Program-made: the position numbers and the translations under genes
Shown here: one piece after another, positions 1 through 14,613 of the stretch
How the letters are laid out: each line of letters begins with the position of its first letter
Position numbering within the stretch: position 1 is the stretch's first letter
Notes under the pieces: model-generated
Database searches by the model: none
What the model was told of the DNA's origin: nothing
What the model saw: the letters and a program-made list of their open reading frames with translations, nothing else
DNA from: a virus
Length of the DNA stretch: 30,462 nucleotides
IMG/VR virus record: IMGVR_UViG_3300031951_000838
Span: 1 to 30,462 of that record
Direction: 5' to 3' (one strand)

Positions 1-60
1 GTCACGCGTAGAATTTTCCCCCGGGCCGGAATTCCGGGCCGCTGCGGCGGCGGGGGATGA

Positions 61-4207: not shown

Positions 4208-5458
4208 ATGAGCGTTTCCATCCAGGCGCTGCGCGAACACCGCAACGTCAAGGCGAAGGAGGCCCGCAACCTCCTCGACAGCAACACGGGCGATGCGTGG
4301 ACGCCCGCCGTCAAGGCCCAGGTCGACGCGTGCTACGCCGAGATCGACCGCCTGGACGAACAGATCGAGCGCCACGAACGCGCGCTCCAAATCGAAGCCG
4401 GCCTGAAGGACGCAGTCGACGAGCGCGCCGCCAAGGCGGGCAAGTCGGTCGATCAGGTCAAGCACGAGGATGCGCGCGAGCGCAAAGCCTTCTCGCGCTG
4501 GATCCAGGGCGGGATGGACGCGCTCGACGTCGAAGGCAAGGAATTGATGGCCAAGCGCGCCGTCACCATCCAGGCCAACCAGTCGGTCGGCACGGGCTCG
4601 GCCGGCGGCTTCTCGGTGCCCCCCTCGTTCCTCGAGGAAATCGAGATCGCGATGCTGGCCTTCGGCAACGTGATGGGCGTCTCGCGCGTGATCCGCAGCG
4701 CCATCGGCTCGGACTTGCCGGTCCCCGCGCTGAACGACACCAACAACACGGGCCGGATCATCGCGGAAAACGCGGCTCTCACCAACACCGCGCTCGTGCT
4801 CTCGCAGGTCAACATCCCGGTCTTCATGTACTCGTCGGACTCGATCCTGATGAGCTACCAGATGCTCCAGGATTCGATCCTGTCCGAGGGCGAAATCACG
4901 CGCCTGATCGGCGAGCGCCTGGGCCGCATCACCAACCTGCACTTCACCACGGGCACGGGCACGGGCCAGCCGCGCGGCGCGGTCACGGCTTCGACCGTGG
5001 GCCGCACCGGTGCGGCGGGCACGACCGTCACCGCCACCTACAACGACCTCGTGCTGCTGCAGGAATCGGTCGACGAAGCCTACCAGCCGAACTCGCGCTG
5101 GATGTTCCACCAATCCACGCGCCGCATGCTCAAGCAGCTCGTCGATACCACCGGCCGCCCGCTCTGGCAGCCGGGCGTCTCGGCCGGCTTGGGCCAGTCC
5201 GAGCCCGACACGATCCTCGGCCGTCCCTACACGATCAACAACCAGGTGGCGGTCATGGCCGCCAACGCGCGCTCGATCCTGTACGGCGATTTCTCGAAGT
5301 ACTACGTGCGCGTCGTGCGCGACATGCAGATGCGCCGCCTCGACGAGCGCTACGCCGACAACCTCCAGGTCGGCTTCTTCGCCTTCGGGCGTTGGGGCGG
5401 CAACCTGGTCGATGCGGGCACGAACCCGATCCGCTGCTTCGTCAACAGCGCCACGTAA
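4208..5458 (+). CDS. Major capsid protein, HK97 fold
   Basis: Main shell protein. The 416-residue product has the two-part layout of HK97 gp5: a charged, coiled-coil-prone N-terminal region (about 1-100, rich in E, K, R, A) that serves as internal scaffold (delta domain), then the shell-forming part beginning near GGFSVPPSFLEEI (133-145). Family-like segments include LPVPALNDTNNTGRIIAENA, the tip of the E-loop region, and a C-terminal GDFSKYYVRVVRDMQMRRLDE strand typical of Phage_capsid members. Cleavage by the upstream ClpP-like protease would be expected around residues 100-125, but the exact site cannot be read from sequence. The start is supported by AAGAAAGGA upstream. The gene has long gaps on both sides, unlike the rest of the operon. 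Confidence 0.96.
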   Translation: MSVSIQALREHRNVKAKEARNLLDSNTGDAWTPAVKAQVDACYAEIDRLDEQIERHERALQIEAGLKDAVDERAAKAGKSVDQVKHEDARERKAFSRWIQGGMDALDVEGKELMAKRAVTIQANQSVGTGSAGGFSVPPSFLEEIEIAMLAFGNVMGVSRVIRSAIGSDLPVPALNDTNNTGRIIAENAALTNTALVLSQVNIPVFMYSSDSILMSYQMLQDSILSEGEITRLIGERLGRITNLHFTTGTGTGQPRGAVTASTVGRTGAAGTTVTATYNDLVLLQESVDEAYQPNSRWMFHQSTRRMLKQLVDTTGRPLWQPGVSAGLGQSEPDTILGRPYTINNQVAVMAANARSILYGDFSKYYVRVVRDMQMRRLDERYADNLQVGFFAFGRWGGNLVDAGTNPIRCFVNSAT

Positions 5459-5494: not shown

Positions 5495-5527
5495 GTCGCT
5501 TTCCCGTCCCCCGAACCCGAGGTTCCC

Positions 5528-5878
5528 ATGCGCGTCCGTCTTCTCTCCCCCTATCCGCTGATCGTCGCCGCCAACGGCCGTCCGATCGACCCGCCCGCCA
5601 TCGTCGAATTGCCCGACGATTTCGCCCGCGCGCTCGAAGCGCAATTCCTGCTCGAAGCCGCGCCCGACGCCGACATCACCGCCGAGGCGACGGTGCTCGG
5701 CCTGACCGATGCGCCCGCCCCGGCGCCCGCAGAAGCGCCCGCGCTGGCCGATCTGACCAAGGCGAAGCTGGTGGCGCTGGCCAAGGACGAGCTCGGCCTC
5801 GATCTCGATCCCGATCTCAAGAAGGACGATCTGATCGCCGCCATCGAAGCCGAGCGCGCGGAAAAGGCGAAGGCCTAA
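5528..5878 (+). CDS. Small head-region protein with C-terminal SAP/HeH-like helix-hairpin domain
   Basis: The 116-residue product begins with a beta-rich segment (MRVRLLSPYPLIVAANGRPI), has an Ala/Pro-rich linker (about 60-74), and ends in a helix-turn-helix-like block (about 75-110: DLTKAKLVALAKDELG, then LKKDDLIAAIEA). This C-terminal block resembles the HeH/SAP/Rho-N type of small helical domain (LTKAEL...LGI...kkdel...I) found at the end of many phage head and connector proteins, where it may bind DNA or another virion protein. GAGG lies 8-9 nt before the ATG. It sits between the capsid protein and a large structural protein, so a head-associated role is likely. The exact function is unknown. 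Confidence 0.75.
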   Translation: MRVRLLSPYPLIVAANGRPIDPPAIVELPDDFARALEAQFLLEAAPDADITAEATVLGLTDAPAPAPAEAPALADLTKAKLVALAKDELGLDLDPDLKKDDLIAAIEAERAEKAKA

Positions 5879-10319: not shown

Positions 10320-11540
10320 ATGCCCATCGCAATCGGCGTCGCGAAGTCCCTTCGCGTCAAGAAGGAATCGGCCCTCAACAGCGCGCCGGGCGCTTCGGGC
10401 GCGCAGCTTCTGCGCCGCGTGACGAGCGAGTTCTCGCTCGACAAGCAAAGCTACCAGTCGGCCGAAATCCGCCCGGACTATCAGGTCTCGGATTTCCGCC
10501 ACGGCGGCCGCTCGGTCACGGGGCGGCTCAACGGCGAAATGTCGTGCCTCACCTACGCCGACTTCCTCGCCGCCGCCTTGCGAAATTCCTGGGCGGCCGG
10601 CGCCACGACCGGCGCGCTGACCAACGTCACCGCCGCCGCCACCCCGCCGCACTTCACGCGCGCCGCCGGCTCGTTCCTGACCGACGGCTTCAAGATCGGC
10701 GACGTGGTCCGCTGGTCGGGCTGGGCCACGACCGGCGCCACCAACAACGCGCGCAACTACCGGATCACGGCGCTGACGGCCACGGCGATGACCGTCGCCG
10801 ATCTCAACTCGGCGACCTCGACCGTCGGCGCCAAGGCCTCGGGCGATAGCGTGACCTGCGTCGTCCCGGGCCGAAAGCTGATCGCGCCGCTGACCGGCCA
10901 CACGAACGATTCCTTCTACTTCGAGGAATGGCACCCCGACATCACGCAGTCCGAGCGTTTCGGCGGGTGCCGCGTGTCGCAAATCGACCTCGGCCTGCCG
11001 GCCACCGGCATGGCGACGGTCGCCCTGCAATTCCTCGGCGTCGACATGACGAGCGCCACTTCCGCCTACTACACCTCGCCCACCGCCGCGACCTCGACGG
11101 GCATCCTCGCCGCCGTCAACGGCAAGCTGCGCGTCGGCGGGGTGGACATCGCCACGGTCACCGGCCTCAACCTGACGATCAACGGCAACATGTCGAGCGC
11201 CCAGGTCGTGGGCTCGAACGTCTCGCCCGACATCTTCCCGGGCTCGATCGTCGTCGGCGGCTCGTTCACCTGCTATTTCGAGGACGGGGCGCTGCGCGAC
11301 AACTTCATCAACGAGGACGAAATCTCGCTTTTCTCGTACCTCACCGCGACCAACGCCAACGCCGCACCGACGCTCGGCCTCTATCTGCCGCGCCTCAAGC
11401 TGGGCCAAGCGCAAAAGACCGACGGCCAGCAGGGCATCGTCCGGAACTACACCTTCCAAGCGCTGCTCAACGGCGCCGGCGGCGCGGGCATCGCCTCGGA
11501 CGCGACCACGATCGCGATCCAGGACACCGAAGTTCCGTAA
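10320..11540 (+). CDS. Major tail tube protein
   Basis: Forms the stacked rings of the non-contractile tail. The 406-residue product has the features of the long Phage_tail_tube group: an N-terminal beta region with LRRVTSEFSLDKQSYQSAEIRPDYQVSDFRHG split around residues 31-62 (this E-I-R-...-Q-...-D-R-G pattern is characteristic), a middle beta sandwich and a C-terminal TEVP end. About residues 103-180 look like an inserted small beta module (FLTDGFKIGDVVRWSGW, then NARNYRITALTATAMTV), a type often found inserted in phage structural proteins and probably displayed on the tail surface. ACCGAAAAGGATT precedes the ATG. The gene is followed by the longest non-coding gap in the late operon. Confidence 0.9.
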   Translation: MPIAIGVAKSLRVKKESALNSAPGASGAQLLRRVTSEFSLDKQSYQSAEIRPDYQVSDFRHGGRSVTGRLNGEMSCLTYADFLAAALRNSWAAGATTGALTNVTAAATPPHFTRAAGSFLTDGFKIGDVVRWSGWATTGATNNARNYRITALTATAMTVADLNSATSTVGAKASGDSVTCVVPGRKLIAPLTGHTNDSFYFEEWHPDITQSERFGGCRVSQIDLGLPATGMATVALQFLGVDMTSATSAYYTSPTAATSTGILAAVNGKLRVGGVDIATVTGLNLTINGNMSSAQVVGSNVSPDIFPGSIVVGGSFTCYFEDGALRDNFINEDEISLFSYLTATNANAAPTLGLYLPRLKLGQAQKTDGQQGIVRNYTFQALLNGAGGAGIASDATTIAIQDTEVP

Positions 11541-11632: not shown

Positions 11633-11654
11633 ACCCTCCCCGACAGGTGACATC

Positions 11655-12083
11655 ATGACCGACGTTTTCGATCTCGGCGCGCTCGTCTATGGCGACGCGG
11701 CGCAACTCGCCATCCGCACCCGCGACGGCGCCCCGACCGGCTGGAAAGTGACCGTCTGCGGTCCCGGCCACCCGAACCATGCCGACATCCAGCGCCGCTT
11801 GAGCGCCTTCCGCGACGCGCGCGCGCGCCAGGAAGCGATGGCCAAAAAGCGCAACGACATCTTCGTGCCGAGCGCCGAGGAGGACGCAGAGCTGTGGCGC
11901 GACCTGTTCGCCCGCCGCGTGCTCGCCTGGACGCCGGTCAAGTTCGACGGCGCCGATTTCCCGTGCGACGAGGCCAATCGGCGCGCGATCTTCGCCGAGC
12001 CGCGCTTCGCCTGGATCGCCGAGCAAATCAACGAATTCGCGTCCGACCTCGCAAATTTTACGAGGAAGACCGCCGCGGCTTGA
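11655..12083 (+). CDS. Tail assembly chaperone, unshifted product (gpG-like)
   Basis: The 142-residue product fits the upstream chaperone made between tail tube and tape measure. It starts MTDVFDLGALVYGDAAQLAI and includes AEDEELW-type charged helices typical of this role; there is no enzyme motif. The ATG at 11655 is preceded by ACAGGTGA, while an upstream in-frame start at 11580 lies within the hairpin region and is less likely. The last codons before the stop contain AAATTTT in the correct phase, where ribosomes can slip into the -1 frame and join the next ORF. In lambda the same arrangement gives gpG and gpGT, which bind the tape measure and recruit tail tube protein. Confidence 0.85.
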   Translation: MTDVFDLGALVYGDAAQLAIRTRDGAPTGWKVTVCGPGHPNHADIQRRLSAFRDARARQEAMAKKRNDIFVPSAEEDAELWRDLFARRVLAWTPVKFDGADFPCDEANRRAIFAEPRFAWIAEQINEFASDLANFTRKTAAA

Positions 12084-12092
12084 TCGCGGCGG
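12053..12092 (+). promoter_or_regulatory. Programmed -1 ribosomal frameshift site: slippery heptamer plus hairpin
   Basis: AAATTTT at 12053-12059 is read as (GC)A AAT TTT in the chaperone frame, which is a textbook X-XXY-YYZ slippery heptamer. After a one-base backward slip, reading continues as TAC GAG GAA GAC and stays open to 12433. Ten nt downstream lies a perfect 8-bp GC-only stem, CCGCCGCG (12070-12077) and CGCGGCGG (12085-12092), with a 7-nt loop holding the stop codon of the unshifted frame. Motif, phase, spacing, hairpin and gene position all agree. Confidence 0.88.
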
Positions 12093-12433
12093 CGAGGGCG
12101 CAATTCGCGCTGGCCGCGCGCCAGCCCGACGGCGCCAGCCTGCGCGATCACCTCGAAGCGGTCGCGCGCGCCACGGGCGTCCGGCCTCCGGAACTCGACC
12201 CGCCGCCGGTCCCGGCCGGGCTCGCGCATGTCTGGCGCTGGTTCGGCGATCTGTCGACCGGCCGGCGCCTCGGCGCTTTCGGCCCGGCCCCGCTCGGCTG
12301 GGACGACATCGCCGCTTGGGCCGCGCTCGCCGGCGCCAAGCCCACGCCCGCCGATCTCGACGCCTTGCGCGAACTCGACGCCGCCTATCTCGACCGCGTC
12401 TACGCCGATCTCCAAGGGAAGACCCGCCCGTGA
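12059..12433 (+). CDS. Tail assembly chaperone extension, reached by -1 frameshift (gpT-like)
   Basis: This frame has no ATG of its own between the slippery site and its end, and is best explained as the C-terminal part of a fusion beginning at 11655. The fusion would have 135 residues from the first frame plus 124 from this one, 259 in all, with the junction reading LANF-YEEDRRG. The extension is helical and ends VWRWFGDLSTGRR, then GPAPLGWDDIAAWAAL, an order seen in alphaproteobacterial phage and GTA chaperones (W-DI-AW). The stop overlaps the GTG of the tape measure gene (GTGA). A separate start at TTG 12080 is possible but has no good ribosome binding site. Confidence 0.85.
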   Translation, partial: YEEDRRGLIAAARAQFALAARQPDGASLRDHLEAVARATGVRPPELDPPPVPAGLAHVWRWFGDLSTGRRLGAFGPAPLGWDDIAAWAALAGAKPTPADLDALRELDAAYLDRVYADLQGKTRP

Positions 12434-14613
12434 GCGCACCCCCGCCCGTCACCGAGATCGACATCCGCACCCAGGCGGCCGAGGCGGGGCTGAAGCGCCT
12501 CGACGCGGCGTTCAAGGGCGCCGGCGCGTCGTCGGACGCCTTTGCGGCGACGCTCGACGAGCAGCAGCGCGCCTTCCTGCAGCTCACCGCGCGCACCGAC
12601 GCCGCCGCGCGCGCCCGCCTGCAATTCGAGGCGGCCGAGCGGCGCATCGGGGCGGCGTTCGACGCGGGCAAGATCGGCGTCGGCCAATACAACGCGGCCC
12701 TCGATCAGCAGATCGTCAAGCTCCAGCAGGTCGCCCAGCGCCAGCAGGTCTTCGCCCAAGCCGCGACCGGGGCGGCGGGGGCGGGGCGCAATCTGGGTGC
12801 GACGATCGGCCAGGCCGGCTTCCAAATCCAGGACTTCGCCGTCCAGGTCGGGGCGGGGCAATCGGCGCTCACCGCTTTCGGGCAGCAAGGCTCGCAGCTT
12901 CTCGGGATCTTCGGCCCGGCGGGCGCCATCGCGGGCGCCGCGCTGGCGATCGGCGTCATCGCCCTGAAGCTGATCGATTGGAAGACCGAGGCCGACAAGG
13001 CGGCCGAAGCCACCGAAAAGCTCGACGAAGCGACCAAGGCCGCGACGGACACGATCGACCGTCAGGTCAAACTCGGCCGCGATCTCGCCGACCAGCAGGG
13101 GCGCGAACTCGACCGCACCGCCGATCTGGCGCGCTACTACGCCTCGCTCGACGGCACGCTGCGCGAGTACGAGCGCACGCGCCTGCGCTTGCGCAAGATC
13201 GAGATCGAGGAGCGGCTCGACGCCTCGCGTCAATCGGCCCGCGCGGCCATCAGCGGCACCCGCCGCACGATGACCGACGCCGCCGCCGGATTCGGCGTCG
13301 CCGATCTGGACGCGCTGGCCGAGCGCGTGCGTCGCGCCACGGGCGATGCGGGCGCGCAAGGCGCGCGCGTCGCCGAAGCGTTGGCGGAGTTCGAGCGCGG
13401 CGGCGACATCGCCAAGCTCTACACGCGCCTGTTCGAGGCGGCCACGCAAGCCGAGGGCGGTTTCAGCAAGGAATTGCGCGCCGCGCTTCCGGCCTTGGCG
13501 GAGGCGGCGGAGCGCAGCCGGGGTGCCGCCGAAGCCATCGACGCGCTCAATCGGGCGATCGACCTCACCGGCAAATCGACCGAAGAACTCGCGGCGCTGT
13601 CCGCCGACACGACCAAGGCGCGCGAAGCCGCGGCCCGCTCGGCGCGCGACACCGCGCGCGAAGCCGAACGCGAGGCCGAGGCGGCGCGCAAAGCCCAGCT
13701 CAAGGCGCTCGAAGACGAGGCCAAATTCTGGGAGGCCAACGACCGGGCCGCGCGCGATGCGCTCGACGCGCAACTCCGCCGCGCCCGCGCCTTCGACGAG
13801 TGGCTGGCGGCGCTGGAGCGCGAAGCCGAGCTTGCGGGTCAGACCAAGGAAATCCGCGAGGAAGAGCTGAAACTGATCGAAGCCCGCGCCAAGGCGGGCC
13901 GCGATCTGACCGCCGACGAGGAAGCGCGCGTGCGCCTTGCGGTCGCCACGCGCCAAGCGGGCGAGGCCGAGCGCAAGGCCGCCAAGGAAACCGCCGACTT
14001 TATCGAGAATTCCTTCGACCGCGCGTTCGACCGGATCGGCGACGCCGCCGCCGCCATGGCGCTCGACGGCAAGAACGCCTTCGCCAGTCTCGCCAATGTC
14101 GGCCGCGCGGTCGCGGCCTCGCTCTACGCCGATTTCCTGAAGCTCGCCCTCGTCAACCCGATCAAGAATATGGTCTTCGGCGGCAACGCGCCGACCTTGG
14201 GCGGCGGCGGGTTCTTCGACGGGCTTTTCGGCGGCGGGTCGGCCGGCGCGGGCGCGGGCAACACGCTGGCCACGACCGGCGGCGCGGGCTTCTCCGGCGG
14301 CACGTTCGCCACGGGCGGGGATCATCCCGGCGGCCTGCGCATGGTCGGCGAGCGTGGGGCCGAGATCGAGGCCACGGGCCCGGCGCGCATCTGGTCGGCC
14401 GAGCAGACGCGCGCCTTCCTGCAAGGCGGGCGCGGGCGCGTGGTGATCAACGACAACCGCGCGGCGGGATCGCCCGACCTCTCGATTTCCGAAACCGGCG
14501 ACGGCGACGTCGTCGTCACCATCGACGAGCGCATCCGCGCCGCGACGCCGCGCATCGTCGAATCCAGTGTGGTCGCGGTCGCATCGCGCATGCGGCGCGG
14601 GAGCTTCCCGTAA
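12430..14613 (+). CDS. Tail tape measure protein
   Basis: Sets tail length and is carried in the tail tube. The GTG at 12430 overlaps the previous stop and gives 727 residues. The protein is largely alpha-helical and rich in A, E, R, K and D, with long coiled-coil-prone stretches (about 195-260 and 390-540), and one hydrophobic segment near 158-180 (GPAGAIAGAALAIGVIALKL) of the kind that contacts the host membrane at DNA entry. The C-terminal part has the typical end of lambda-type tape measures: AFASLANVGRAVAASLYADFLKLAL (about 550-575, split by FLK), a Gly-rich stretch with GGFFDGLFGGG, and GLRMVGERGAEIEA (about 635-648). By the usual rule of about 0.15 nm per residue, the tail would be near 100 nm long. 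Confidence 0.93.
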   Translation: MSAPPPVTEIDIRTQAAEAGLKRLDAAFKGAGASSDAFAATLDEQQRAFLQLTARTDAAARARLQFEAAERRIGAAFDAGKIGVGQYNAALDQQIVKLQQVAQRQQVFAQAATGAAGAGRNLGATIGQAGFQIQDFAVQVGAGQSALTAFGQQGSQLLGIFGPAGAIAGAALAIGVIALKLIDWKTEADKAAEATEKLDEATKAATDTIDRQVKLGRDLADQQGRELDRTADLARYYASLDGTLREYERTRLRLRKIEIEERLDASRQSARAAISGTRRTMTDAAAGFGVADLDALAERVRRATGDAGAQGARVAEALAEFERGGDIAKLYTRLFEAATQAEGGFSKELRAALPALAEAAERSRGAAEAIDALNRAIDLTGKSTEELAALSADTTKAREAAARSARDTAREAEREAEAARKAQLKALEDEAKFWEANDRAARDALDAQLRRARAFDEWLAALEREAELAGQTKEIREEELKLIEARAKAGRDLTADEEARVRLAVATRQAGEAERKAAKETADFIENSFDRAFDRIGDAAAAMALDGKNAFASLANVGRAVAASLYADFLKLALVNPIKNMVFGGNAPTLGGGGFFDGLFGGGSAGAGAGNTLATTGGAGFSGGTFATGGDHPGGLRMVGERGAEIEATGPARIWSAEQTRAFLQGGRGRVVINDNRAAGSPDLSISETGDGDVVVTIDERIRAATPRIVESSVVAVASRMRRGSFP

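Follow-up and report, generated by a model that had tools for sequence, protein, structure and literature searches.

The overlapping reading frames at positions 11655 to 12433 very probably undergo a programmed -1 ribosomal frameshift of the lambda G/GT type, in the tail module of a long-tailed phage or prophage. This reading rests on a slippery motif in phase with the first frame, on matches to tail-chaperone families, on the position between the tail tube and tape measure genes, and on comparison with relatives, in which 112 of 123 homologous junctions are arranged for a -1 shift and 84 of those 112 carry a heptamer. The same proposal had been made in the first-pass annotation, and the relatives bear it out, 66 of 111 -1 members also lacking any start codon for the second frame. 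The window, by which we mean the whole stretch analyzed, corresponds to a 30,462-base virus record of IMG/VR and has 69.5% G+C; its other genes include those for terminase, head protease, tail terminator, tail tube, tape measure, and tail fibre. The features around the junction are as follows.

10320 to 11540, plus strand: tail tube protein gene (Pfam PF18906 Phage_tube_2, E 1.6e-34; PHROG 290, E 1.6e-51).
11655 to 12083, plus strand: ORF1, zero-frame tail assembly chaperone (G-like), 142 amino acids (PHROG 313 'Tail assembly chaperone', E 1.6e-14).
12053 to 12059, plus strand: slippery heptamer A_AAT_TTT (pattern X_XXY_YYZ), in phase with ORF1 (sequence and translation).
12059 to 12433, plus strand: ORF2, -1 frame, T-like domain, 124 amino acids after the slip, ending at TGA 12431-12433 (PF23812 Phage_TAC_18, E 7.6e-16; PHROG 3817 tail chaperonin, E 8.3e-8).
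12081 to 12083, plus strand: zero-frame TGA stop of ORF1, within a hairpin loop (sequence and translation).
12430 to 14613, plus strand: tape measure protein gene (PHROG 19487 tail length tape measure protein, E 4e-14; PHROG 1538, E 7.3e-10).

ORF1 and the -1 frame thus lie between the tail tube and tape measure genes, the position occupied by G/GT-type pairs. The open stretch of the -1 frame runs from 11651 to 12433, overlapping ORF1 and reaching the tape measure gene as claimed earlier, where the GTG start at 12430 overlaps the ORF2 stop. The match of ORF2 to PF23812 scores 58.4 bits against a cut-off of 27. ORF1 has no Pfam match, and a PDB sequence search returned no match for either ORF. 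The 3' end of ORF1 reads ...GCA AAT TTT ACG AGG AAG ACC GCC GCG GCT TGA, and the 135 codons up to TTT plus 124 in the -1 frame give a predicted fusion of 259 residues, the length stated in the first-pass annotation. Its expectation that standard annotation would miss or split such a fusion holds in at least one relative, Bradyrhizobium phage OP596612.1 (L003), in which the two ORFs are listed separately and the first is misnamed. There, ORF1 (4983-5432) is called a 'branched-chain amino acid ABC transporter' and ORF2 (5498-5791) is a separate hypothetical gene starting well downstream of the slip site; both seem to be annotation errors.

We infer the slippage itself, its efficiency, and the roles of the two products from the sequence. 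Most ribosomes would read ORF1 to the TGA at 12081-12083 and release the 142-residue chaperone, while some would slip back one base on A_AAT_TTT. In such tandem slippage, tRNA-Asn would re-pair from AAU to AAA and tRNA-Phe from UUU to UUU, a perfect re-pairing, and translation would continue in ORF2 to 12433, yielding the fusion with the junction ...LANF-YEEDRRGL.... By analogy with lambda, ORF1 would coat the tape measure protein and the ORF2 domain would recruit the tube subunit. A GC stem downstream of the heptamer probably stimulates the slippage, as stems do in IS elements.

The heptamer is in the correct phase, as had been noted, with the zero-frame reading A_AAT_TTT. AAATTTT occurs once over both strands of the window; since 0.86 copies are expected, its mere presence is unremarkable. 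However, among 4,350 sampled codons of the window ORFs, AAT and TTT are rare (23 AAT to 143 AAC; 15 TTT to 131 TTC), so the AAT-TTT pair stands out. Measured in E. coli, tetramers of the form U_UU.Y rank with the most shift-prone, and heptamers of the form H_HH.U_UU.Y, A_AA.U_UU.U included, with the efficient ones (PMC4066793). A 121-nt fold also places the heptamer itself inside a small 5-bp stem, CCTCG/CGAGG (12047-12051 with 12061-12065).

For comparison, relatives were gathered from viral contigs and genomes using the tail tube protein as query, and PF23812 prophages from 289 genomes were added; profiles of ORF1 and ORF2 then placed both ORFs, and removal of identical junctions left 123 distinct homologous junctions. 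As lone queries, ORF1 and ORF2 retrieved almost no relatives. One candidate relative, L002, was rejected as an unrelated, tape-measure-like chance match. ORF2 overlaps the end of ORF1 out of frame in all 123 junctions, 112 times in the -1 frame and 11 times in the +1 frame. The strict in-phase XXXYYYZ heptamers found in 84 of the 112 -1 junctions, against approximately 5 expected by chance, are AAATTTT (44), AAAAAAC (11), TTTTTTG (10), AAATTTC (10), and others in smaller numbers. A further 27 have only a Y_YYZ tetramer, nearly always U_UUU, leaving a single -1 junction (L213) with neither; it reads GGG AAC TTC CTG CGG GAC TGA. Strict in-phase heptamers occupy 96 of 1,839 codons (5.2%) in the overlap, compared with 22 of 7,826 (0.28%) upstream in ORF1, an excess too large for sequence kinship, which the comparison ignores, to matter.

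The sister of the window (support 100/100) is L064, which lies in an Azospirillum MAG, has a tube protein 76% identical, and carries G_GGT_TTC at the heptamer position; OP596612.1 has A_AAT_TTT at the same site. Another group (L005, L009 to L012, and the prophages L290 to L292, L294, L296, and L297) carries A_AAA_AAC with the stop mostly right after AAC and strong stems starting just beyond it. Alignment of homologues, the check suggested at the outset for both heptamer and stem, gave a split answer: the heptamer is conserved far above chance, and the window's stem register is not.

That stem consists of the following elements.

12070 to 12077, plus strand: 5' arm of the GC hairpin, CCGCCGCG, following a 10-nt spacer after the heptamer (8 bp, 100% complementary).
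12085 to 12092, plus strand: 3' arm of the GC hairpin, CGCGGCGG, fully complementary to the 5' arm.

The arms agree with the perfect 8-bp stem originally described, ten nucleotides on from the heptamer, and the 7-nt loop contains the TGA at 12081-12083. RNAfold gives the hairpin -17.6 kcal/mol as a 9-bp stem. The fold energy at this site corresponds to a z of -1.33, or of -1.82 against synonymous recodings (rank 0.04), making the stem strong in absolute terms and only mildly unusual for a GC-rich composition. It begins 10 nt after the heptamer, outside the usual 5 to 8 nt downstream at which the stems of -1 motifs lie in E. coli work (PMC4066793). At the window's own register, 45.0% of cells are paired across relatives versus 43.4% in shuffles (119/500), with no covariation, and this stem was therefore rejected as a conserved element. 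Rfam returned no match.

A stimulatory stem is nevertheless likely as a tendency of the family. In 78 dereplicated relatives, the sequence after the slip codon folded more strongly than its synonymous recodings (mean z -1.26, with 35% at rank <0.05), compared with z values of -0.15 to -0.78 and 5 to 21% at rank <0.05 for folding 60 to 210 nt further on. Of 45 significant folds, 36 have their first paired base 5 or 6 nt downstream of the slip codon. Across 31 members aligned without gaps, the register +5..14/+31..40 has 63.0% of cells paired versus 55.2 ± 1.7 in shuffles (0/500) and 28 double changes versus 16.0 ± 2.9 (0/500), and slid registers reach 29 to 46% paired; the register was picked after viewing folds of some of the same sequences, and the shuffles ignore relatedness. 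We regard this test as moderate evidence for a family stem with compensatory changes. RNAalifold on 31 sequences gave no consensus structure. An apparent trade-off between weak slip sites and strong stems (Mann-Whitney p 0.002 in the stop-at-24 class) was gone in phylogenetically independent pairs (median p 1) and was discarded.

The position of the stop within the loop had been suggested to give the hairpin a special role, slowing termination at the TGA and thereby raising frameshifting. A dedicated element of this kind is improbable. The stop is indeed enclosed and unpaired in 11 of 15 stop-at-24 relatives with a significant fold, and in L064, too, a stem surrounds the TGA. Of 21 significant cases in the stop-at-12 and stop-at-15 classes, however, 17 have the stop in a stem arm. 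Moreover, while the slip codon occupies the A site, the stop still lies 21 nt further along, past the decoding centre, so that termination cannot yet be a competitor. Together with the 10-nt spacer and the absence of covariation at the window's own register, these results leave both the special role and slowed termination unsupported. Spacing best explains the stop in the loop, as a by-product: at shorter slip-to-stop distances in relatives, the stop usually falls in a stem arm.

A second explanation, in which the heptamer is incidental and ORF2 is made as a separate protein by termination-reinitiation, centers on one further feature.

12080 to 12082, plus strand: TTG in the ORF2 frame overlapping the ORF1 stop (cTTGA), a candidate reinitiation start (sequence).

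ORF2 lacks an ATG of its own, as had been observed, but this possible TTG start had been overlooked. The TTGA overlap is accompanied by a weak Shine-Dalgarno-like GAGGAAG at 12062-12068, and coupled TTG starts occur in GC-rich bacteria. The relatives make the explanation very unlikely. At the homologous codon, 36 same-spacing relatives have CTG (27), CTA (5), TTA (3), or TTG (1), so that leucine is kept and the start is not. In 66 of 111 -1 members, L064 among them, the ORF2 frame contains no ATG, GTG, or TTG between the point where it opens and the 15th codon after the slip codon, and in 52 -1 members it opens at most 30 nt from the slip codon. Reinitiation therefore cannot be the mechanism of the family. 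The conserved region of ORF2 (FY..L...L) also starts upstream of the TTG at 12080. A minor contribution of reinitiation in this window is possible.

RNA polymerase slippage on the A/T run, another way to produce the fusion, is highly implausible here: transcriptional slippage on long runs is known from phages and IS elements, and some relatives (L061) have runs of eight T, but the three A and four T of the window are short for polymerase slippage and the codon phase is conserved, a need of ribosomes alone. That a sequencing or assembly error split one gene can practically be dismissed, even for a metagenome-derived contig, with the -1 overlap and slippery motif recurring in more than 100 independent junctions and in one annotated phage genome.

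The programmed -1 frameshift can be set beside known systems. The lambda G/GT frameshift was reportedly described by Levin in 1993 and by Xu, Hendrix, and Duda in 2004, 2013, and 2014. It shares with the present pair two overlapping ORFs between the tube and tape measure genes, a -1 slip near the end of the first ORF, and chaperone families. It differs in its heptamer, GGGAAAG rather than A_AAT_TTT; moreover, the window has a GC stem downstream, and no lambda-like protein family is detectable in it. Lambda requires its short product, which binds the tape measure protein, and its fusion, whose additional domain binds the tube subunit, in a ratio of approximately 30:1 (PMC5009743). The tail assembly chaperone frameshifts catalogued by PRFect involve the same gene, the same -1 logic, and a slip near the stop, at an average slip-to-stop distance of 26 nt in the training set versus 24 nt from the slip codon here (PMC10885494). 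That set comprises actinobacteriophages, whereas the present family consists mainly of uncultured viral contigs and proteobacterial prophages. The -1 motifs of IS3/IS1-family elements and E. coli likewise use U_UU.Y tetramers and X_XX.U_UU.Y heptamers, but in other genes and with stems 5 to 8 nt downstream, compared with 10 nt in the window (PMC4066793).

Outside the window, the relatives differ in the direction of the shift, which is +1 in one subclade. The 11 +1 members (L021, L042, L074, L076, L080, L081, L086, L106, L166, L171, and L172) each carry a TTT with C or T as the next base and a TGA exactly 12 nt downstream of the first T of that codon, so that the Phe tRNA could re-pair in the +1 frame, from UUU to UUC or UUU. 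In ten of them, the first 20 codons of ORF2 contain no start codon. We read the shift as +1 rather than -2: the sequence cannot separate the two, but the sites offer no -2 re-pairing. On the tail-tube tree, the +1 state needs at least three changes, and a single clade is rejected (p-AU 2.6e-55, a value weakened by the definition of the group after the data had been seen). L161, a -1 member with A_AAT_TTT that is known from one contig, is nested among the +1 members L086, L074, and L076, from which it differs by AAT/AAC and a 2-nt indel. Another -1 member, L032, whose junction is identical in three contigs, is also nested within the +1 group, and a tree of ORF1 plus ORF2 shows the same nesting. 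In this family, then, the shift at one conserved Phe codon has probably changed direction repeatedly, from -1 (A_AAU_UUU) to +1 (AAC_UUU_Y) or back; altering the codon before it together with a 2-nt indel would replace the slip mechanism while keeping the fusion.

The +1 sites resemble the UUU_CGN site of influenza A PA-X, proposed as a class of +1 site active in eukaryotes (PMC3498833), in that they use UUU_C, often as UUU_CGA, where the Phe tRNA could move from UUU to UUC. The likeness concerns the relatives rather than the window, and the published sites belong to eukaryotic viruses. Differences in direction between distant phages have been reported (PMC5009743); for flips among close relatives, we found no report among the open-access papers searched.

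These results add a well-supported tail-chaperone frameshift for the Phage_TAC_18 family, in which annotation splits the fusion. The frameshift itself is an old, well-known phage trick, and the opposite direction in close relatives is the more unusual point. If the pattern among the relatives is true, the +1 site would be a phage counterpart of UUU_CGN in PA-X, and natural close pairs such as L161 and L086 would carry opposite slip directions in the same gene, so that the determinant of slip direction could be addressed with few mutations.
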